Source of the DNA: a virus | Virus record (IMG/VR): IMGVR_UViG_3300025759_000802 | Coordinates: 1-21,856 of that record | Strand: one strand, 5' to 3' | DNA: 21,856 nt | Shown here: positions 7,332 to 15,150 of the stretch, in pieces | How positions within the stretch are numbered: position 1 is the stretch's first letter | How the letters are laid out: each line of letters begins with the position of its first letter | Program-made: the position numbers and the translations under genes | The notes under the pieces: generated by a model | Databases searched by the model: none | Told to the model about the DNA's origin: nothing | The model's input: the letters and a program-made list of their open reading frames with translations, nothing else

Positions 7332-7508
7332 TTAGTCAAAAGGATCGTAAGCTTCGGCGACGTCCTCGTCAACCTGCCCCGCGCCCTCGCACAGACGGCA
7401 CTCCATCTGCGCCTCGTCGATGTAGCCACCGCGCCAGTCTCCCGGCGCGGCGACCCTCACCTCATACCACGCGACGCCTTTCCCGTCGCACTCAGGGCAG
7501 GTGGTCAT
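7332..7508 (-). CDS. Small DnaJ-type zinc-finger protein
   Basis: The protein has 58 residues; the start ATG overlaps the upstream gene's TGA (ATGA), which decides it over a longer in-frame start. It has two CxxC pairs in DnaJ-like repeats: C4-C7 in CPECDGKG and C37-C40 in CRLCEGAG, which probably bind one zinc. The C-terminus is acidic (DEDVAEAYDPFD). It is the last gene of the leftward cluster. Such mini zinc fingers are common in phage early regions, without known partners. Between its stop and the terminator is a GCGGGT/ACCCGC hairpin at 7305-7324. Confidence 0.6.
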   Translation of the reverse strand: MTTCPECDGKGVAWYEVRVAAPGDWRGGYIDEAQMECRLCEGAGQVDEDVAEAYDPFD

Positions 7509-7777
7509 GCCGCCACCTCCTCGTAAGCGGTCGCCCATTCAATGAGCAGGTGATGGCACTTGTCGATTTGATCGTCAGTCATGCCAAGTTCATCGCGCGC
7601 GATGTTTACGGCGAGAGAGGCATGCGCGTAAGAGATGCGGCTAAGGCGAGCGTACTCGTCATAATCGTCCTCACTGACAAGCACAGAGGCCGCCTGCCGG
7701 TTGTGAGCTTCTGCCTTGTGCTGGTGGAACGCAAAGTCCACAAAAGTCTCAATCTGGGCTTCGGTTGGCTTTTTCAT
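7505..7777 (-). CDS. Hypothetical early protein (90 aa)
   Basis: The ATG at 7777 is preceded by the shared leader CATCATCGAAGGGAGA and six spacer bases. The product is acidic and helical, with the N-terminus MKKPTEAQIETFVDFAFHQHKAEAHNRQAASVL and the acidic YDEYARLS segment. I do not recognise a family. Tight coupling with the zinc-finger gene downstream suggests they are expressed together. Confidence 0.55.
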   Translation of the reverse strand: MKKPTEAQIETFVDFAFHQHKAEAHNRQAASVLVSEDDYDEYARLSRISYAHASLAVNIARDELGMTDDQIDKCHHLLIEWATAYEEVAA

Positions 7778-7783
7778 CGTATG

Positions 7784-7822
7784 TCTCCCTTCGATGATGG
7801 AAATGGGGCCGTTAGGCCGCCA
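7784..7822 (-). repeat. Intergenic linker copy A: stop-in-loop hairpin plus conserved leader
   Basis: Plus-strand GGGGCC-GTTA-GGCC(G)CC folds as a stem with a one-base bulge; its GTTA loop holds the stop codon of the gene ending at 7812. It is followed, in minus-strand order, by CATCATCGAAGGGAGA, the leader of the gene starting at 7777. The string GGGGCCGTTAGGCCGCC recurs exactly in the copy near 11133. Confidence 0.6.
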
Positions 7823-8063
7823 CCCAGTTAGCTTGCTCCACGAGCCACGTCATATGCTCGTCGCGAGCGACAACCTGAATTTGATAATACAGGATATCCT
7901 CGGGGCCGACGGCCTCGATCTCGCTGTAGTCGAGATCGTGGAGCGCCTTGGACTGCTCGACGGCGCGGTCATAGCAGGCCATCGCGTCAATCCCATTGTC
8001 GAATTCCTTGACCCGATGGCAGGAGCCATCCTTCTTGAAAAAGCGAACTTCACAGTAAGTCAT
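7812..8063 (-). CDS. Hypothetical early protein (83 aa)
   Basis: I chose ATG 8063 because the conserved leader CATCATCGAAGGGAGA lies seven bases before it; the longer frame runs through the leader. The product is short and acidic, starts MTYCEVRFFKKDGSCHRVKEFDN and ends NWVAA. It has a beta-rich N-terminus and a helical middle with Cys at position 31 (DAMACYDRAVEQ). No family is recognised. It lies in a chain of equally arranged small genes. Confidence 0.55.
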   Translation of the reverse strand: MTYCEVRFFKKDGSCHRVKEFDNGIDAMACYDRAVEQSKALHDLDYSEIEAVGPEDILYYQIQVVARDEHMTWLVEQANWVAA

Positions 8064-8069
8064 CGTGTG

Positions 8070-8109
8070 TCTCCCTTCGATGATGGTGAGGGGTGGCGCT
8101 AGGCCACCC
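8070..8109 (-). repeat. Intergenic linker copy B: stop-in-loop hairpin plus conserved leader
   Basis: GGGTGGC at 8091-8097 and GCCACCC at 8103-8109 form a perfect 7-bp stem. The five-base loop GCTAG contains the TAG stop (minus strand) of the gene ending at 8099. On the minus strand it is followed by CATCATCGAAGGGAGA. The stem bases differ from those of copy A while pairing is kept, which suggests the fold matters. Confidence 0.65.
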
Positions 8110-10396: not shown

Positions 10397-10628
10397 TTTC
10401 GGTCTCCTTTTTTACGCGCTTAAACATCAGCGAAAAATGCACGACCTTTTTGCCATACCACACGCGCATGTAATGGCTCCTAGAAAAGCCATAAATGGTG
10501 AACTTGGCGCGGCGCTTGTACCTTTTCCAAGCAAGCACCTTGACGCCAGCGAATATCCACTCGCCCTCGCCAAGCTCTGTCCAAGGCCTCGGCCAGTCGG
10601 TGGGTATGTCCAGTTTGCCTTTTTTCAT
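10386..10628 (-). CDS. Hypothetical basic early protein (80 aa)
   Basis: ATG 10628 follows the shared leader CATCATCGAAGGGAGA. The product is basic and aromatic, with DIPTDWPRPWTELGEGEWIFAGVKV and KRYKRRAKFTIYGFS. A beta-rich fold is likely. Its 3' end overlaps the exonuclease start by 11 bases, so it may be translationally coupled to that enzyme. No family is recognised; an exonuclease accessory role is possible but unproven. Confidence 0.55.
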   Translation of the reverse strand: MKKGKLDIPTDWPRPWTELGEGEWIFAGVKVLAWKRYKRRAKFTIYGFSRSHYMRVWYGKKVVHFSLMFKRVKKETENGR

Positions 10629-10633
10629 CTCAA

Positions 10634-10673
10634 TCTCCCTTCGATGATGCGCCCGGCCACGACAGCCGGGCGC
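10634..10673 (-). repeat. Intergenic linker copy C: hairpin plus conserved leader
   Basis: GCGCCCGGC at 10649-10657 and GCCGGGCGC at 10665-10673 make a perfect 9-bp stem with a seven-base loop. On the minus strand it comes six bases after the stop of the gene ending at 10680 and runs straight into CATCATCGAAGGGAGA. Unlike copies A, B and D, the stop codon is outside the loop. There is no T-run, so an ordinary terminator is unlikely on this strand. Confidence 0.6.
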
Positions 10674-10966: not shown

Positions 10967-11110
10967 CTAGTTGCCGATGTGGACGATGAGCGCCCACCAA
11001 GTGTAGGACCGAGAACTCTCGATCCCGAAAACCCAGAGCCAGTCGATCCAGCCCAAGGTGAAAAGAGTGATCAGCGCCGCGCCGATGATGTCGTCTGCGT
11101 ACTGTTTCAT
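10967..11110 (-). CDS. Small membrane protein (47 aa)
   Basis: The leader CGAAGGGAGA precedes ATG 11110 by six bases, which decides this start against a longer frame. The product is hydrophobic: DIIGAALITLFTLGWIDWLWVFG is one membrane helix and WWALIVHIG a second possible one, with five Trp in 47 residues. It could act at the host membrane early in infection, for example in exclusion of other phages, but the sequence gives no proof. Confidence 0.5.
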   Translation of the reverse strand: MKQYADDIIGAALITLFTLGWIDWLWVFGIESSRSYTWWALIVHIGN

Positions 11111-11116
11111 GATGTG

Positions 11117-11151
11117 TCTCCCTTCGGGGGCGGGGCCGTTAGGCCGCCGCC
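11117..11151 (-). repeat. Intergenic linker copy D: stop-in-loop hairpin plus conserved leader
   Basis: GGCGGGGCC and GGCC(G)CCGCC fold as a 9-bp stem with a one-base bulge around the loop GTTA, which contains the TAA stop (minus strand) of the gene ending at 11139. On the minus strand CGAAGGGAGA follows. It shares GGGGCCGTTAGGCCGCC exactly with copy A, about 3.3 kb away. Confidence 0.6.
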
Positions 11152-11375
11152 TTCTTGATTTCTGCGATGATGGCGTCGATCCAAGGCTCAAGCAGCGGAC
11201 GATCATCACAAATCGTGTTGATCAGGCTTGAGGCTGCATGCGCGTCGTCGGCAGGGTCTGGCATGTCCTGATGCAGGCAATCAATGACGACGCCCAGATC
11301 AACGGCGGCCTCGCGGTCTTCCTGCCAAATCACCTCAACCGAGAAGCGGTCAATCTTGTCAAGCAGTGTGGTCAT
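11139..11375 (-). CDS. Hypothetical acidic early protein (78 aa), first gene of the leftward operon
   Basis: ATG 11375 follows CATCGAAGGGAGA with five spacer bases. The product is acidic and helical: MTTLLDKIDRFSVEV, REAAVDLGVVIDCLHQDMPDPADD, and the C-terminus WIDAIIAEIKKAAA. It is the first gene of the leftward cluster after the divergent control region and so probably the earliest translated. No family is recognised. Small acidic first-transcribed proteins are often host-takeover or DNA-mimic factors; that is speculation here. Confidence 0.55.
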   Translation of the reverse strand: MTTLLDKIDRFSVEVIWQEDREAAVDLGVVIDCLHQDMPDPADDAHAASSLINTICDDRPLLEPWIDAIIAEIKKAAA

Positions 11376-11483
11376 CGGTATCTCCCTTCGATGTGTTCTA
11401 TCAACGTCCTATTTATCGCATGATATGGTTATGCTATCAACAACTAAATCGCATCTGGCGAAAACTATTTTAAAGAGGCGCAA
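11376..11483. promoter_or_regulatory. Divergent promoter/operator region
   Basis: This AT-rich stretch of about 110 bases separates the leftward and rightward operons. TTTATCGCAT at 11412-11421 and ATGCTATCAA at 11431-11440 form an imperfect dyad (8 of 10 bases) nine bases apart, and ATCGCAT is repeated directly at 11448-11454. On the minus strand TTGATA inside the dyad could be a -35 box, the same hexamer as in the candidate promoter near 8995; the matching -10 is weak. Rightward, TATTTT at 11466 is a weak -10. A phage or host regulator could control both operons here. Confidence 0.5.
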
Positions 11484-12510: not shown

Positions 12511-13143
12511 ATGGCGTTAGGATTTAACCTTGAGACTAAAAGCGGCGGGGACATCCTGCCAATCGTGAAGTGGGACGCTAAGGCGGGCGACTTCATCAAG
12601 CAGGACCGGTATCAGGCCGGTGACGGGACTTGGCAGAAAGATGAGCAGGAACTCGGACTTCCCCTCCAGATCGCGATGGACTTGGCAAACATCGAGATCG
12701 GGTGGCTGTCCTTCGCGTCAGGCGCGCCTGACTTTCAAATGGTCAAGGCAGGCGAGCCCCTCCCGGCACAGCCGAGCCCGGACCACAAGCAGGCGTTCCG
12801 CGTCCGCATCGGGACGACTGAGCTTGGCCTTCGTGAATTTTCTCATTCTGCGAAAACTGTATTGCGTGCGATGGACACTCTTTACAATCAGTTTGAGGCG
12901 GAGGCTCCGGCAAATCCGGGCAAGATGCCGGTGGTGACAATCGCCGGCACAGAGCGGATCAAGATCAATTCGCCGCAGGGCGAGTTGACCTTCAAGGTGC
13001 CGCAGTGGTCGATCACGTCGTGGATTGATCGCCCGGCCCTGATGGACGGCGGTGCGGCCGCTCCATCTGAACCCGCGCCAGCAGCGGCGGTGTCGCAACC
13101 TCCCGCAGCCACTGCTGAGGCAACAGGTGCGAACCTGTTCTAG
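12511..13143 (+). CDS. Probable ssDNA-binding / annealing-type protein
   Basis: The protein has 210 residues and the ribosome site TTAGGAG precedes ATG 12511. The N-terminal about 170 residues are mixed beta and helix: GFNLETKSGGDILPIVKWDAK, GWLSFASGAPDFQMV, FRVRIGTTELGLREFSHSA, LTFKVPQWSITSW. The tail from about 175 is Ala-, Pro- and Gln-rich and flexible, ending ATGANLF. A folded core plus a Pro/Ala tail with a short hydrophobic end is the build of many phage SSBs. Context supports it: nucleases upstream, primase-helicase downstream. I cannot exclude a strand-annealing protein; no Erf, RecT or Beta motif is seen. Confidence 0.5.
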   Translation: MALGFNLETKSGGDILPIVKWDAKAGDFIKQDRYQAGDGTWQKDEQELGLPLQIAMDLANIEIGWLSFASGAPDFQMVKAGEPLPAQPSPDHKQAFRVRIGTTELGLREFSHSAKTVLRAMDTLYNQFEAEAPANPGKMPVVTIAGTERIKINSPQGELTFKVPQWSITSWIDRPALMDGGAAAPSEPAPAAAVSQPPAATAEATGANLF

Positions 13144-13150
13144 CGCGGTA

Positions 13151-13211
13151 GCTCCCGGCGGTGTTTCTCCCTTCGCCGCCGGGAGCGTCTACCGAAGGGG
13201 GGAAGGGAGAA
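13151..13211 (+). promoter_or_regulatory. Hairpin whose loop is complementary to the downstream ribosome site (candidate pseudoknot switch)
   Basis: GCTCCCGGCGG at 13151-13161 and CCGCCGGGAGC at 13176-13186 pair perfectly over 11 bp. The 14-base loop contains TTCTCCCTTC at 13165-13174, the exact complement of GAAGGGAGAA at 13202-13211, which is the ribosome site of the primase-helicase six bases before its ATG. A 15-base connector separates stem and site, compatible in length with an H-type pseudoknot. No T-run follows, so it is not a standard terminator. Ten loop bases (13166-13175) also complement CGAAGGGAGA in five minus-strand leaders. Confidence 0.6.
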
Positions 13212-13216
13212 CGTCA

Positions 13217-15058
13217 ATGACACAGAACATCACGGCTCACGCGGAGAGGATTGCCCGGCACTACTGGGGCGAGCCGAACGCGAAGCTGTCAGTCAACGGT
13301 CGCACCTTGCGCTGGGGCACAAAGGGCAGCAAGGAACTCGACCTGATCAAGAAGACTTGGTATGACTTCGAGGCCGATGAGGGCGGCGGGGTCATCGACC
13401 TCGTCAAGCGCCACGGCAAGCTCGGCATTTCCGGCTCTGTCGCCGACGTGCTGGAGCGCGAATTCGGCATTCAGAAGCAAGCGCAAAAAGCGCTGGAGCC
13501 GAAGCAATACATCCAGCGCATCTATCCGTATTTCGACGCTGACGGCGCTGAGGCTTATCAGGTGTGCCGGATGTACCCGAAGACGTTCCGACAGCGCAGG
13601 CCGGACGGCAGAGGCGGCTACATCTACAAGATGGACGGCGTCGAGCCGCTGCCCTACAACCTGCCGGCGATCATGCAGAACCCGGACCAGCCGGTGTTCG
13701 TGGTGGAGGGCGAGCAGTGCGCCGACGTGCTATCGGAGGCAGGCTTGCTCTCGACAACAAACCACGGCGGGGCGGGCAAGTGGCTGGACGCGCACGCGCA
13801 GCACTTGGAGGGCCGCAACGTGATCGTCATCCCCGACAACGATGAGGCGGGCGCACGACACGCGGACAAGGTGGTGGCGTCGCTGTGGGGTAAGGCGGGG
13901 CAGATCAAGCGCGTGGATCTGCCGGGCTTACCGGATAAGGGCGACGTCGTCGACTTCCTGCGCGAGCACACGCTCGGCGAGCTTGTCGAGATCGTGCAGG
14001 ACACGCCGGCGCTGTCAGAAGCGCCGCAGGTCAGCGATGACGCGGTGGCGGATGAGGACGGCGCGATAGAGCGATACCAGACGATGCGCCGCGACGCGGT
14101 GTTTTCGATGCCGCCCGTCGAGTTTCTCGTGGATGGGCTGATCACCGACACGGGCTTCACGATGATGTACGGTGCGCCCGGCACGGGCAAGTCGTTCCTC
14201 GCCATCGACATAGCGCTCAGCGTCGCGCACGGCGTCCCGTGGCAGGGGCAAGAGGTCAAGTCCGGGCCGGTACTTTATATTGCGGGCGAGGGCATCGGCG
14301 GATTTTCAAAAAGATGGAAGGCGTGGGAGAACCACCACGGCGTCAAGGATGAGCCGGACCTGTACCTGCTGCCGACGGCGGTCAACTTCCGCGAGGAAGA
14401 GGACATAGCGCGGCTGGTGGCGACGATCGAGGACATCGGGCAGCGGTTCTCGCTCGTGATCGTGGACACGGTGGCGCGCGCTATCGCTGGTGCCGAGGAA
14501 AACAGTAGTACGGATATGGGGCTGTTCGTCGCAGCGTGTGACGAAATTAAGGCGCTGACGGGCGGTGCGCTGCTCGCGGTGCATCACGCGGGCAAGGACA
14601 GCAGCAGGGGCGCACGCGGCTCTACGGCGCTTCTGGGTGCTGTTGACACGTCGCTGATGGTCGGCAAGTCAGAAGAGATCGTGACGCTGCGTACCGAGAA
14701 GATGAAGGACGCGGAGCCGATGGACGACATCAACCTGCAAATGCTGGTGGTGCCGGCGTCGATTTCCGAGACGTCCGTCGTGCTGGAGCGCACCGACGAG
14801 AAGCCGAAGAAGAAGAAGGAGTGGCGTCCCGTCGGTGCACAAAAGAGGGCGCTGCAAGTGTTTGAGAACCTGTGCGTGGATCGCGGCTCGCCGAAGATCA
14901 GATACAACGATTGGACGGCCAAAATGCACTCCGATATGCCCGACACGCCGGACAGCACGAAGGGATCGGCTCGCGACGCATTAATCGACAATGAATGGAT
15001 CATCTCCGTTGATGGTGTATGTTGGAAAAACAAAGAGATAGATGGTGTTTCATCGTAG
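13217..15058 (+). CDS. Primase-helicase: TOPRIM domain fused to RepA-like hexameric helicase
   Basis: The protein has 613 residues; ATG 13217 follows GGAAGGGAGA, which decides it over a longer frame. Residues about 15-90 resemble the CHC2-primase entry domain (KTWYDFEADEGGGVIDLVKR) but have no zinc-binding Cys. The TOPRIM core follows: E164 in FVVEGEQCADVL, then D207 and D209 in IPDNDEAG and D243 in KGDVVDFL. The helicase part has Walker A GAPGTGKS at 319-326, E358 in YIAGEGI, Walker B ending D417 in LVIVD and AVHHAGK at 454-460, as in RepA-type AAA_25 ATPases. A Lys-rich linker (about 529-535) leads to a C-terminal winged-helix-like segment. It would prime and unwind DNA for replication by a host polymerase, since no phage polymerase is visible. 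Confidence 0.85.
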   Translation: MTQNITAHAERIARHYWGEPNAKLSVNGRTLRWGTKGSKELDLIKKTWYDFEADEGGGVIDLVKRHGKLGISGSVADVLEREFGIQKQAQKALEPKQYIQRIYPYFDADGAEAYQVCRMYPKTFRQRRPDGRGGYIYKMDGVEPLPYNLPAIMQNPDQPVFVVEGEQCADVLSEAGLLSTTNHGGAGKWLDAHAQHLEGRNVIVIPDNDEAGARHADKVVASLWGKAGQIKRVDLPGLPDKGDVVDFLREHTLGELVEIVQDTPALSEAPQVSDDAVADEDGAIERYQTMRRDAVFSMPPVEFLVDGLITDTGFTMMYGAPGTGKSFLAIDIALSVAHGVPWQGQEVKSGPVLYIAGEGIGGFSKRWKAWENHHGVKDEPDLYLLPTAVNFREEEDIARLVATIEDIGQRFSLVIVDTVARAIAGAEENSSTDMGLFVAACDEIKALTGGALLAVHHAGKDSSRGARGSTALLGAVDTSLMVGKSEEIVTLRTEKMKDAEPMDDINLQMLVVPASISETSVVLERTDEKPKKKKEWRPVGAQKRALQVFENLCVDRGSPKIRYNDWTAKMHSDMPDTPDSTKGSARDALIDNEWIISVDGVCWKNKEIDGVSS

Positions 15059-15150
15059 TATCGGAGCGCTCCGTCGGAGCGTCGTAGCACTCCGTCCGAT
15101 ACGACGCGCCCTATGGGCGTCGTAGCGTCGGAGTACGAACCGGATCGTAG
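15053..15150. repeat. Structured repeat region, candidate replication origin or regulatory RNA
   Basis: TCGTAG occurs four times (15053, 15082, 15120, 15145), twice within GCGTCGTAGC. CGGAGCGCTCCG at 15062-15073 is a perfect 12-bp palindrome. CGTAGTATCGGA (15054-15065) can pair with TCCGATACGACG (15094-15105 region) with one mismatch, enclosing that palindrome. CGACGCGCCC and GGGCGTCG form a third hairpin around TAT. The region follows the primase-helicase stop and precedes a gene whose product ends like SSB. Repeats, palindromes and position fit an origin; a leader RNA is the alternative. Confidence 0.45.

Follow-up and report, generated by a model that had tools for sequence, protein, structure and literature searches.

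H-type pseudoknots that mask ribosome-binding sites, such as those of the preQ1-II riboswitches, are built from a hairpin whose loop pairs with a downstream ribosome site and can occlude it. A phage pseudoknot that serves translational control of an SSB gene is known from the gene 32 operator of T4 and RB69. In T4 its position is about 67 nt ahead of the start of the SSB gene, where it nucleates gp32 binding (PMC535899, PMC3014915), and a 2010 review described it as possibly the sole viral case of a pseudoknot used for translation autoregulation (PMC3014915). Loops directed against ribosome sites also occur in the anti-Shine-Dalgarno sRNAs of Rhizobiales, which are separate, trans-encoded molecules with several hairpins and the loop CCUCCUCCC (PMC3927594). 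The SAS and ESAS sequences of Cluster K mycobacteriophages are repeated extended ribosome-site leaders, some with an upstream inverted repeat; their 13-bp consensus, GGGATAGGAGCCC, lies next to start codons, and the ESAS repeats were judged by the authors not to support RNA hairpins (PMC3203893). Rho-independent terminators, finally, also place a GC-rich hairpin right after a stop codon, with a U-run behind the stem.

Here we describe a hairpin on the plus strand of the IMG/VR virus record IMGVR_UViG_3300025759_000802, whose whole 21,856-base stretch we call the window, at the junction between a putative SSB-like gene and a primase-helicase gene. We think it fairly likely, from sequence comparisons, that the hairpin loop and the leader behind it form a cis-acting H-type pseudoknot that limits translation of the helicase relative to SSB. 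The arrangement resembles the preQ1-II pseudoknots in its loop and downstream ribosome site, but it has no visible ligand pocket or conserved unpaired core, and instead has a long GC stem of 11-15 bp that varies freely in sequence and sits between two phage genes. Unlike the T4 element it lies downstream of the SSB-like gene and would involve the ribosome site of the next gene directly, a position that differs from that of the T4 gene 32 autoregulatory pseudoknot. It shares a free stem and an anti-ribosome-site loop with the Rhizobiales sRNAs, but is a single hairpin within an operon, next to the leader that it matches. The window's minus strand has repeated leaders reminiscent of SAS/ESAS, but their leader word is a different sequence, CGAAGGGAGA, so we rejected membership in that family; the hairpin here, moreover, covaries and occurs once per junction. 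Relatives often have a terminator-like hairpin at this place, whereas the window copy has a long antisense loop and no U-run (2 U in 10 nt in G1), and no intrinsic terminator was called there. Rfam gave no match at the gathering threshold and only chance-level matches at E up to 5, and literature searches on pseudoknots with a complementary loop and on cuckoo RNA found nothing direct. The element is thus probably uncatalogued until now, and it probably limits helicase output. Translation-controlling RNA pseudoknots of phages are few, and this putative one, which is short, recurs among uncultivated phages in about five deep lineages.

Results

The hairpin in the window

Reading the sequence directly, we recovered the perfect 11-bp stem, the 14-base loop, the 10-base complement of the downstream ribosome site and the 15-base connector that the original prediction had reported (Table 1). 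The loop segment TTCTCCCTTC is the exact complement of GAAGGGAGAA, and the stem, S1, grows to 13 bp with a 10-nt loop if the U-G and G-C pairs on top are counted. Its calculated energy is -25 to -30 kcal/mol, that of the loop-site helix ranges from -8.6 (6 bp) to -15.2 kcal/mol (10 bp), and the ribosome site is about 80% unpaired when loop pairing is left out. A scan of both strands for perfect stems of at least 10 bp with a loop complementary to the next 60 bases found this hairpin-plus-complement to be unique in the window, even at 6 complementary bases, and 30 dinucleotide shuffles of the window gave no match on either strand at an 8-base cut-off. The window also encodes an Sf6-type small terminase and an SU10-type portal.

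Table 1. Coordinates of the junction elements, flanking genes and minus-strand leader copies in the window.
Feature	Position	Strand	Remarks
Upstream gene, 210 aa, SSB-like	12511-13143	+	Predicted OB-fold; stop TAG 13141-13143
Outer helix CGGUA / UACCG	13146-13150 / 13190-13194	+	In the minimum-energy fold; varies among relatives
Stem S1, 5' strand GCTCCCGGCGG	13151-13161	+	Read directly; extendable to 13163; covariation
Loop TGTTTCTCCCTTCG	13162-13175	+	14 bases, read directly
Anti-ribosome-site segment TTCTCCCTTC within the loop	13165-13174	+	Read directly
Stem S1, 3' strand CCGCCGGGAGC	13176-13186	+	Extendable down to 13174; no U-run after it
Connector from S1 to ribosome site, 15 nt	13187-13201	+	Contains most of the proximal purine target
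Proximal purine segment CGAAGGGGGG	13193-13202	+	Alternative loop partner, with G-U pairs
Distal partner, ribosome-binding site GAAGGGAGAA	13202-13211	+	Exact loop complement; 5 bases before ATG 13217
Primase-helicase, 613 aa, Toprim-like and AAA_25 RepA-type	13217-15058	+	Putative regulated gene
Leader copy CGAAGGGAGA, gene starting at 7777	7784-7793	-	Possible trans target
Leader copy CGAAGGGAGA, gene starting at 8063	8070-8079	-	
Leader copy CGAAGGGAGA, gene starting at 10628	10634-10643	-	
Leader copy CGAAGGGAGA, gene starting at 11110	11117-11126	-	
Leader copy CGAAGGGAGA, gene starting at 11375	11381-11390	-	

The flanking genes

The protein encoded upstream of the hairpin has no family match in Pfam, PHROGs or NCBIfam, and our description of it as SSB-like draws on its predicted structure and its C-terminus. 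The AlphaFold model (pLDDT 77) has a mostly-beta, OB-like core with weak matches to the T4 gp32 core (Z 4.7), RPA and SSBs. A disordered A/P-rich linker leads to a C-terminal ANLF, and homologues end in DDDLF, EDDLF, TGDIF, DPLF or ANLF, with DDDLF or EDDLF in many; SSBs use such C-terminal tips to recruit partners. The phiC31 recombination directionality factor gives the model's best PDB match (Z 7.8), possibly a hint of a distant link between that factor and the OB-fold SSBs. On the far side of the primase-helicase gene, before the next gene, the window has tandem GC-rich, partly palindromic repeats of about 22 nt (15046-15134) that are candidate iterons or a candidate replication origin, and palindromes resembling GTGTGATCACATG lie 3' of the primase in the relatives L019, L038 and L040.

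Relatives of the junction

Repeated scans of viral contigs and one scan of genome contigs yielded 86 distinct stretches of DNA lying 3' of the SSB-like gene, 73 of which were classified and placed on a tree of the SSB-like protein; the genome contigs contributed a single relative, L253, of the terminator type. A GC-rich hairpin follows the SSB-like stop codon in all 73 classified junctions, usually 6-10 nt later. Loops that complement the purine leader occur in 51 of them, which fall into about five deep lineages of the tree, and the label "matching" switches at least 4 times on it. No loop-leader helix of 6 bp or more was found in the 21 non-matching junctions that we tested. Most of the 22 non-matching hairpins are terminator-like with a U-rich tail, and the ten bases after the stem hold on average 2.9 U in matching and 5.1 U in non-matching junctions (p 4e-4). 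A phage record outside IMG/VR, MW202711, likewise has the junction hairpin without a loop match. The reading frame between the two genes varies freely, with frames 0, 1 and 2 all occurring among relatives, so we discarded the idea of a frameshift or readthrough signal made up of stop codon, 7 nt and pseudoknot.

It is as if loop-matching and terminator-like hairpins were two ways to damp the same gene, exchanged for one another. Such swaps let two ways of setting the ratio of replication proteins be compared in nature. The close relatives L008 and L009 (primase 83% identical) count against the proposed pairing: the leader AAAGGGAGACAC is kept and the loop is unrelated to it, the very combination that had been named in advance as grounds for refutation, but the entire hairpin has given way there to a terminator-like hairpin and its U-run. 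In L013 and L038, a gene inserted behind the hairpin-leader has taken over the hairpin-leader and left the primase without it, so that control of the primase is not indispensable. The inserted gene, at 3556-4395 in L013 and at the equivalent place in L038, looks by inspection like a PAPS-reductase gene (SGGRTS motif) and is found in these two lineages; it has the same leader, starts with ATGACAAA and, in L013, overlaps the start of the primase.

Covariation and loop-leader matching

The original prediction had pointed to aligned relatives as the place to look for co-varying stem bases and for loop and leader changes made together, and we found both. Among relatives there are 30 distinct stems, 7 of 13 pairs in S1 have changed on both sides, none of 500 shuffles was as good, and sliding controls were far lower. 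These counts come from a MAFFT alignment (A3) in which the G5 rows are shifted, which counts against S1; only S1 was counted on it, because it misregisters the ribosome site in some rows. Loops and leaders have diverged together into lineage-specific matched letters, of which those of G12 (UUGCUCCCUG/CAGGGGGCAA), G7 (UCUCCCGA/UCGGGAGA) and G8 (UUUCCCUUG/CAAGGGAAA) are, judged by sequence, the strongest single cases; G4 has GUUUCCCUG/CAGGGAGAC and G1 has UUCUCCCUUC/GAAGGGAGAA. The match is poor in G6, G10 and G13.

To score matching we took the strongest loop-leader helix without gaps, allowing one G-U pair at most, an earlier energy test with gapped duplexes having proved too blunt (p 0.01-0.28). 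Across 13 groups the loops pair better with their own leaders than with swapped ones (sum -150.5 versus -123.4, sd 6.3; permutation p 8e-5). When five deep clades are treated as independent units, own pairing is among the best 2 of 120 arrangements (exact test, 0.017), and it ranks first of 6 inside the clade that G7, G12 and G13 make up. For G1-G6, the clade to which the window belongs, an exchange of loops and leaders matters little (172/720, not significant), and combining the clade strata conservatively by Fisher's method gives only about 0.04, the signal lying mainly between clades. We set aside a permutation on anchored segments (p 0) as biased, the segments having been chosen by their own partner. 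A CCC/GGG core is common to loops and leaders, so any anti-ribosome-site loop would show some of this complementarity. Measured against typical leaders of the same genomes, the cis leader is the better loop partner (mean rank fraction 0.26, p 0.001).

Two purine targets in the leader

The window's loop can also pair with the purine run upstream of the ribosome site, which gives it two alternative targets, and the leaders of relatives likewise offer a pair of purine segments, one a few bases 3' of the stem (proximal) and one at the ribosome site (distal). For the window's group the distal site is the best partner, with a connector of 14-15 nt, a length that fits an H-type pseudoknot over a stem of 11-13 bp. 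The connector is 14-20 nt in G1 and G3-G6, where the distal repeat falls on the ribosome site and keeps a constant distance from the ATG. Loop-to-partner spacing varies widely among relatives as a whole: the loops of G8 and of most of G7 match best to the proximal segment, which lies 2-5 nt after a stem of 13-15 bp and ends about 17-20 nt upstream of the ATG. A linker of 2-5 nt is too short to span an intact stem of 13-15 bp in a pseudoknot. Either the stem partly opens in these groups or the proximal pairing is an alternative state, and this geometry is the main weakness of the simple pseudoknot picture. In the leaders of L043, L208, L048 and L005 the purine target is repeated in tandem almost perfectly (CAAGGGACAAGGGACAAG; CAGGGGGCAGGGGGCAA). 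Every copy complements the loop, and copy number varies while the loop match is kept.

Discussion

The hairpin is conserved at this junction, its stem covaries, and its complementarity to the leader has been kept by changes on both sides. Since the match persists in relatives with different letters, the element is probably real. We envision that a GC-rich hairpin forms in the mRNA just 3' of the SSB-like stop codon, and that its pyrimidine loop would pair over roughly 6-9 bases with the purine-rich leader containing the next gene's ribosome site, giving an H-type pseudoknot. Such a pseudoknot could hide the ribosome site and lower helicase synthesis relative to SSB, and synthesis could rise if the site were freed, be it by SSB, by ribosome traffic or by some other factor. 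Reduced initiation at the helicase gene would put the SSB-like protein in excess, and setting the SSB:helicase ratio may be the purpose of the arrangement. Where the loop does not match, the more terminator-like hairpin may instead end transcripts, to much the same effect. Of the pseudoknot switch originally proposed, then, we retain the cis pairing of loop and leader, which stem covariation and matched letters favor, along with an H-type geometry at the ribosome site it had named; a regulated switch would be a further possibility.

It is also possible, albeit doubtful, that S1 simply separates the two genes, by protecting a 3' end, by partial termination or by blocking reinitiation, and that the loop is incidental or merely avoids purines. 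Such an insulating or processing hairpin would fit its presence in 73 of 73 classified relatives, including those that lack a leader match and often have a U-run, and SSB genes are commonly expressed above helicase genes in any case. It would leave unexplained why 51 relatives have a loop-leader helix of at least 6 bp when none of the non-matching junctions tested does, and why loop and leader letters change together between clades. The same co-divergence could in principle follow the changing specificity of a DNA-binding protein if loop and leader were inverted half-sites of an operator or replication signal beside the replication genes, and a DNA-level role is the preferred reading of the ESAS repeats (PMC3203893). 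We regard this as very unlikely here, given that the stem, unlike ESAS, covaries as a base-paired hairpin, that the distal repeat in G1 and G3-G6 falls on the ribosome site itself, and that the spacing between loop and partner is far from fixed. Least credible of all is the notion, offered as a simple alternative in the original prediction, that the loop is a functionless inverted leftover of the repeated leader: its minus strand does read CGAAGGGAGA, the genome-wide leader word, but the leader repeat does not include the stem, and a leftover would decay, whereas complementarity persists, in different letters, across five deep SSB clades.

The original prediction had further suggested that the loop, as part of a rightward transcript, could act in trans on the CGAAGGGAGA leaders and lower translation of the leftward early genes, an idea that we now consider unlikely. 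In its favor, the word occurs exactly in five minus-strand leaders (Table 1), giving each a 10-base exact complement to the loop, where it lies at 13166, and with one mismatch allowed there are 7 matches where 1.65 are expected. Loops track the other leaders of their genomes (p 6e-5 averaged over all, 0.008-0.05 for minus-strand leaders); in G2, G3 and several G8 phages the loop has a stronger partner in a minus-strand leader than in the one in cis, and trans-encoded sRNAs with anti-ribosome-site loops are known in Rhizobiales (PMC3927594). But an extended ribosome-site word recurs ahead of many genes in these phages, which accounts for the tracking, and the minus-strand leaders match the loop because they are strong, repeated ribosome sites: they are told apart from plus-strand leaders about as well by the 16S anti-SD (AUC 0.64) as by the loop (AUC 0.71), so that site strength explains most of the preference. 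The effect per group is about -0.9 kcal/mol, against -2.1 in cis, and the hairpin always lies directly upstream of a matching leader. We found no promoter or terminator consensus around the window hairpin, and hence no promoter-terminator pair that would yield a short RNA. Nothing we found specifically supports lowering of the early genes, the minus-strand match running parallel to ordinary ribosome-site strength and the cis leader ranking better. A combined reading, slightly less likely still, would make the loop a shared antisense sensor that pairs in cis with two alternating sites in the helicase leader and in trans with the early-gene leader word. If this were true, one hairpin would set the balance of replication proteins and coordinate the leftward and rightward operons, and loop and leader word would evolve together within each phage lineage. 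The cis-acting pseudoknot thus continues to be the reading we favor.

On the minus strand, copies of a repeated extended leader, CATCGAAGGGAGACAC, lie at 7774-7824, 8060-8093, 10625-10660, 11107-11151 and 11372-11393, before small early genes, and for several of them the upstream stop codon lies inside a GC hairpin (GGCGGCCTAACGGCCCC). They resemble the SAS leaders of Cluster K mycobacteriophages, which are unexplained, and through recombination they could allow small genes to be shuffled. Also on the minus strand, positions 7332-7538 encode a small zinc-finger-like protein (CxxCxG) whose similarity to the DnaJ central domain and to Anti-TRAP stays below threshold.
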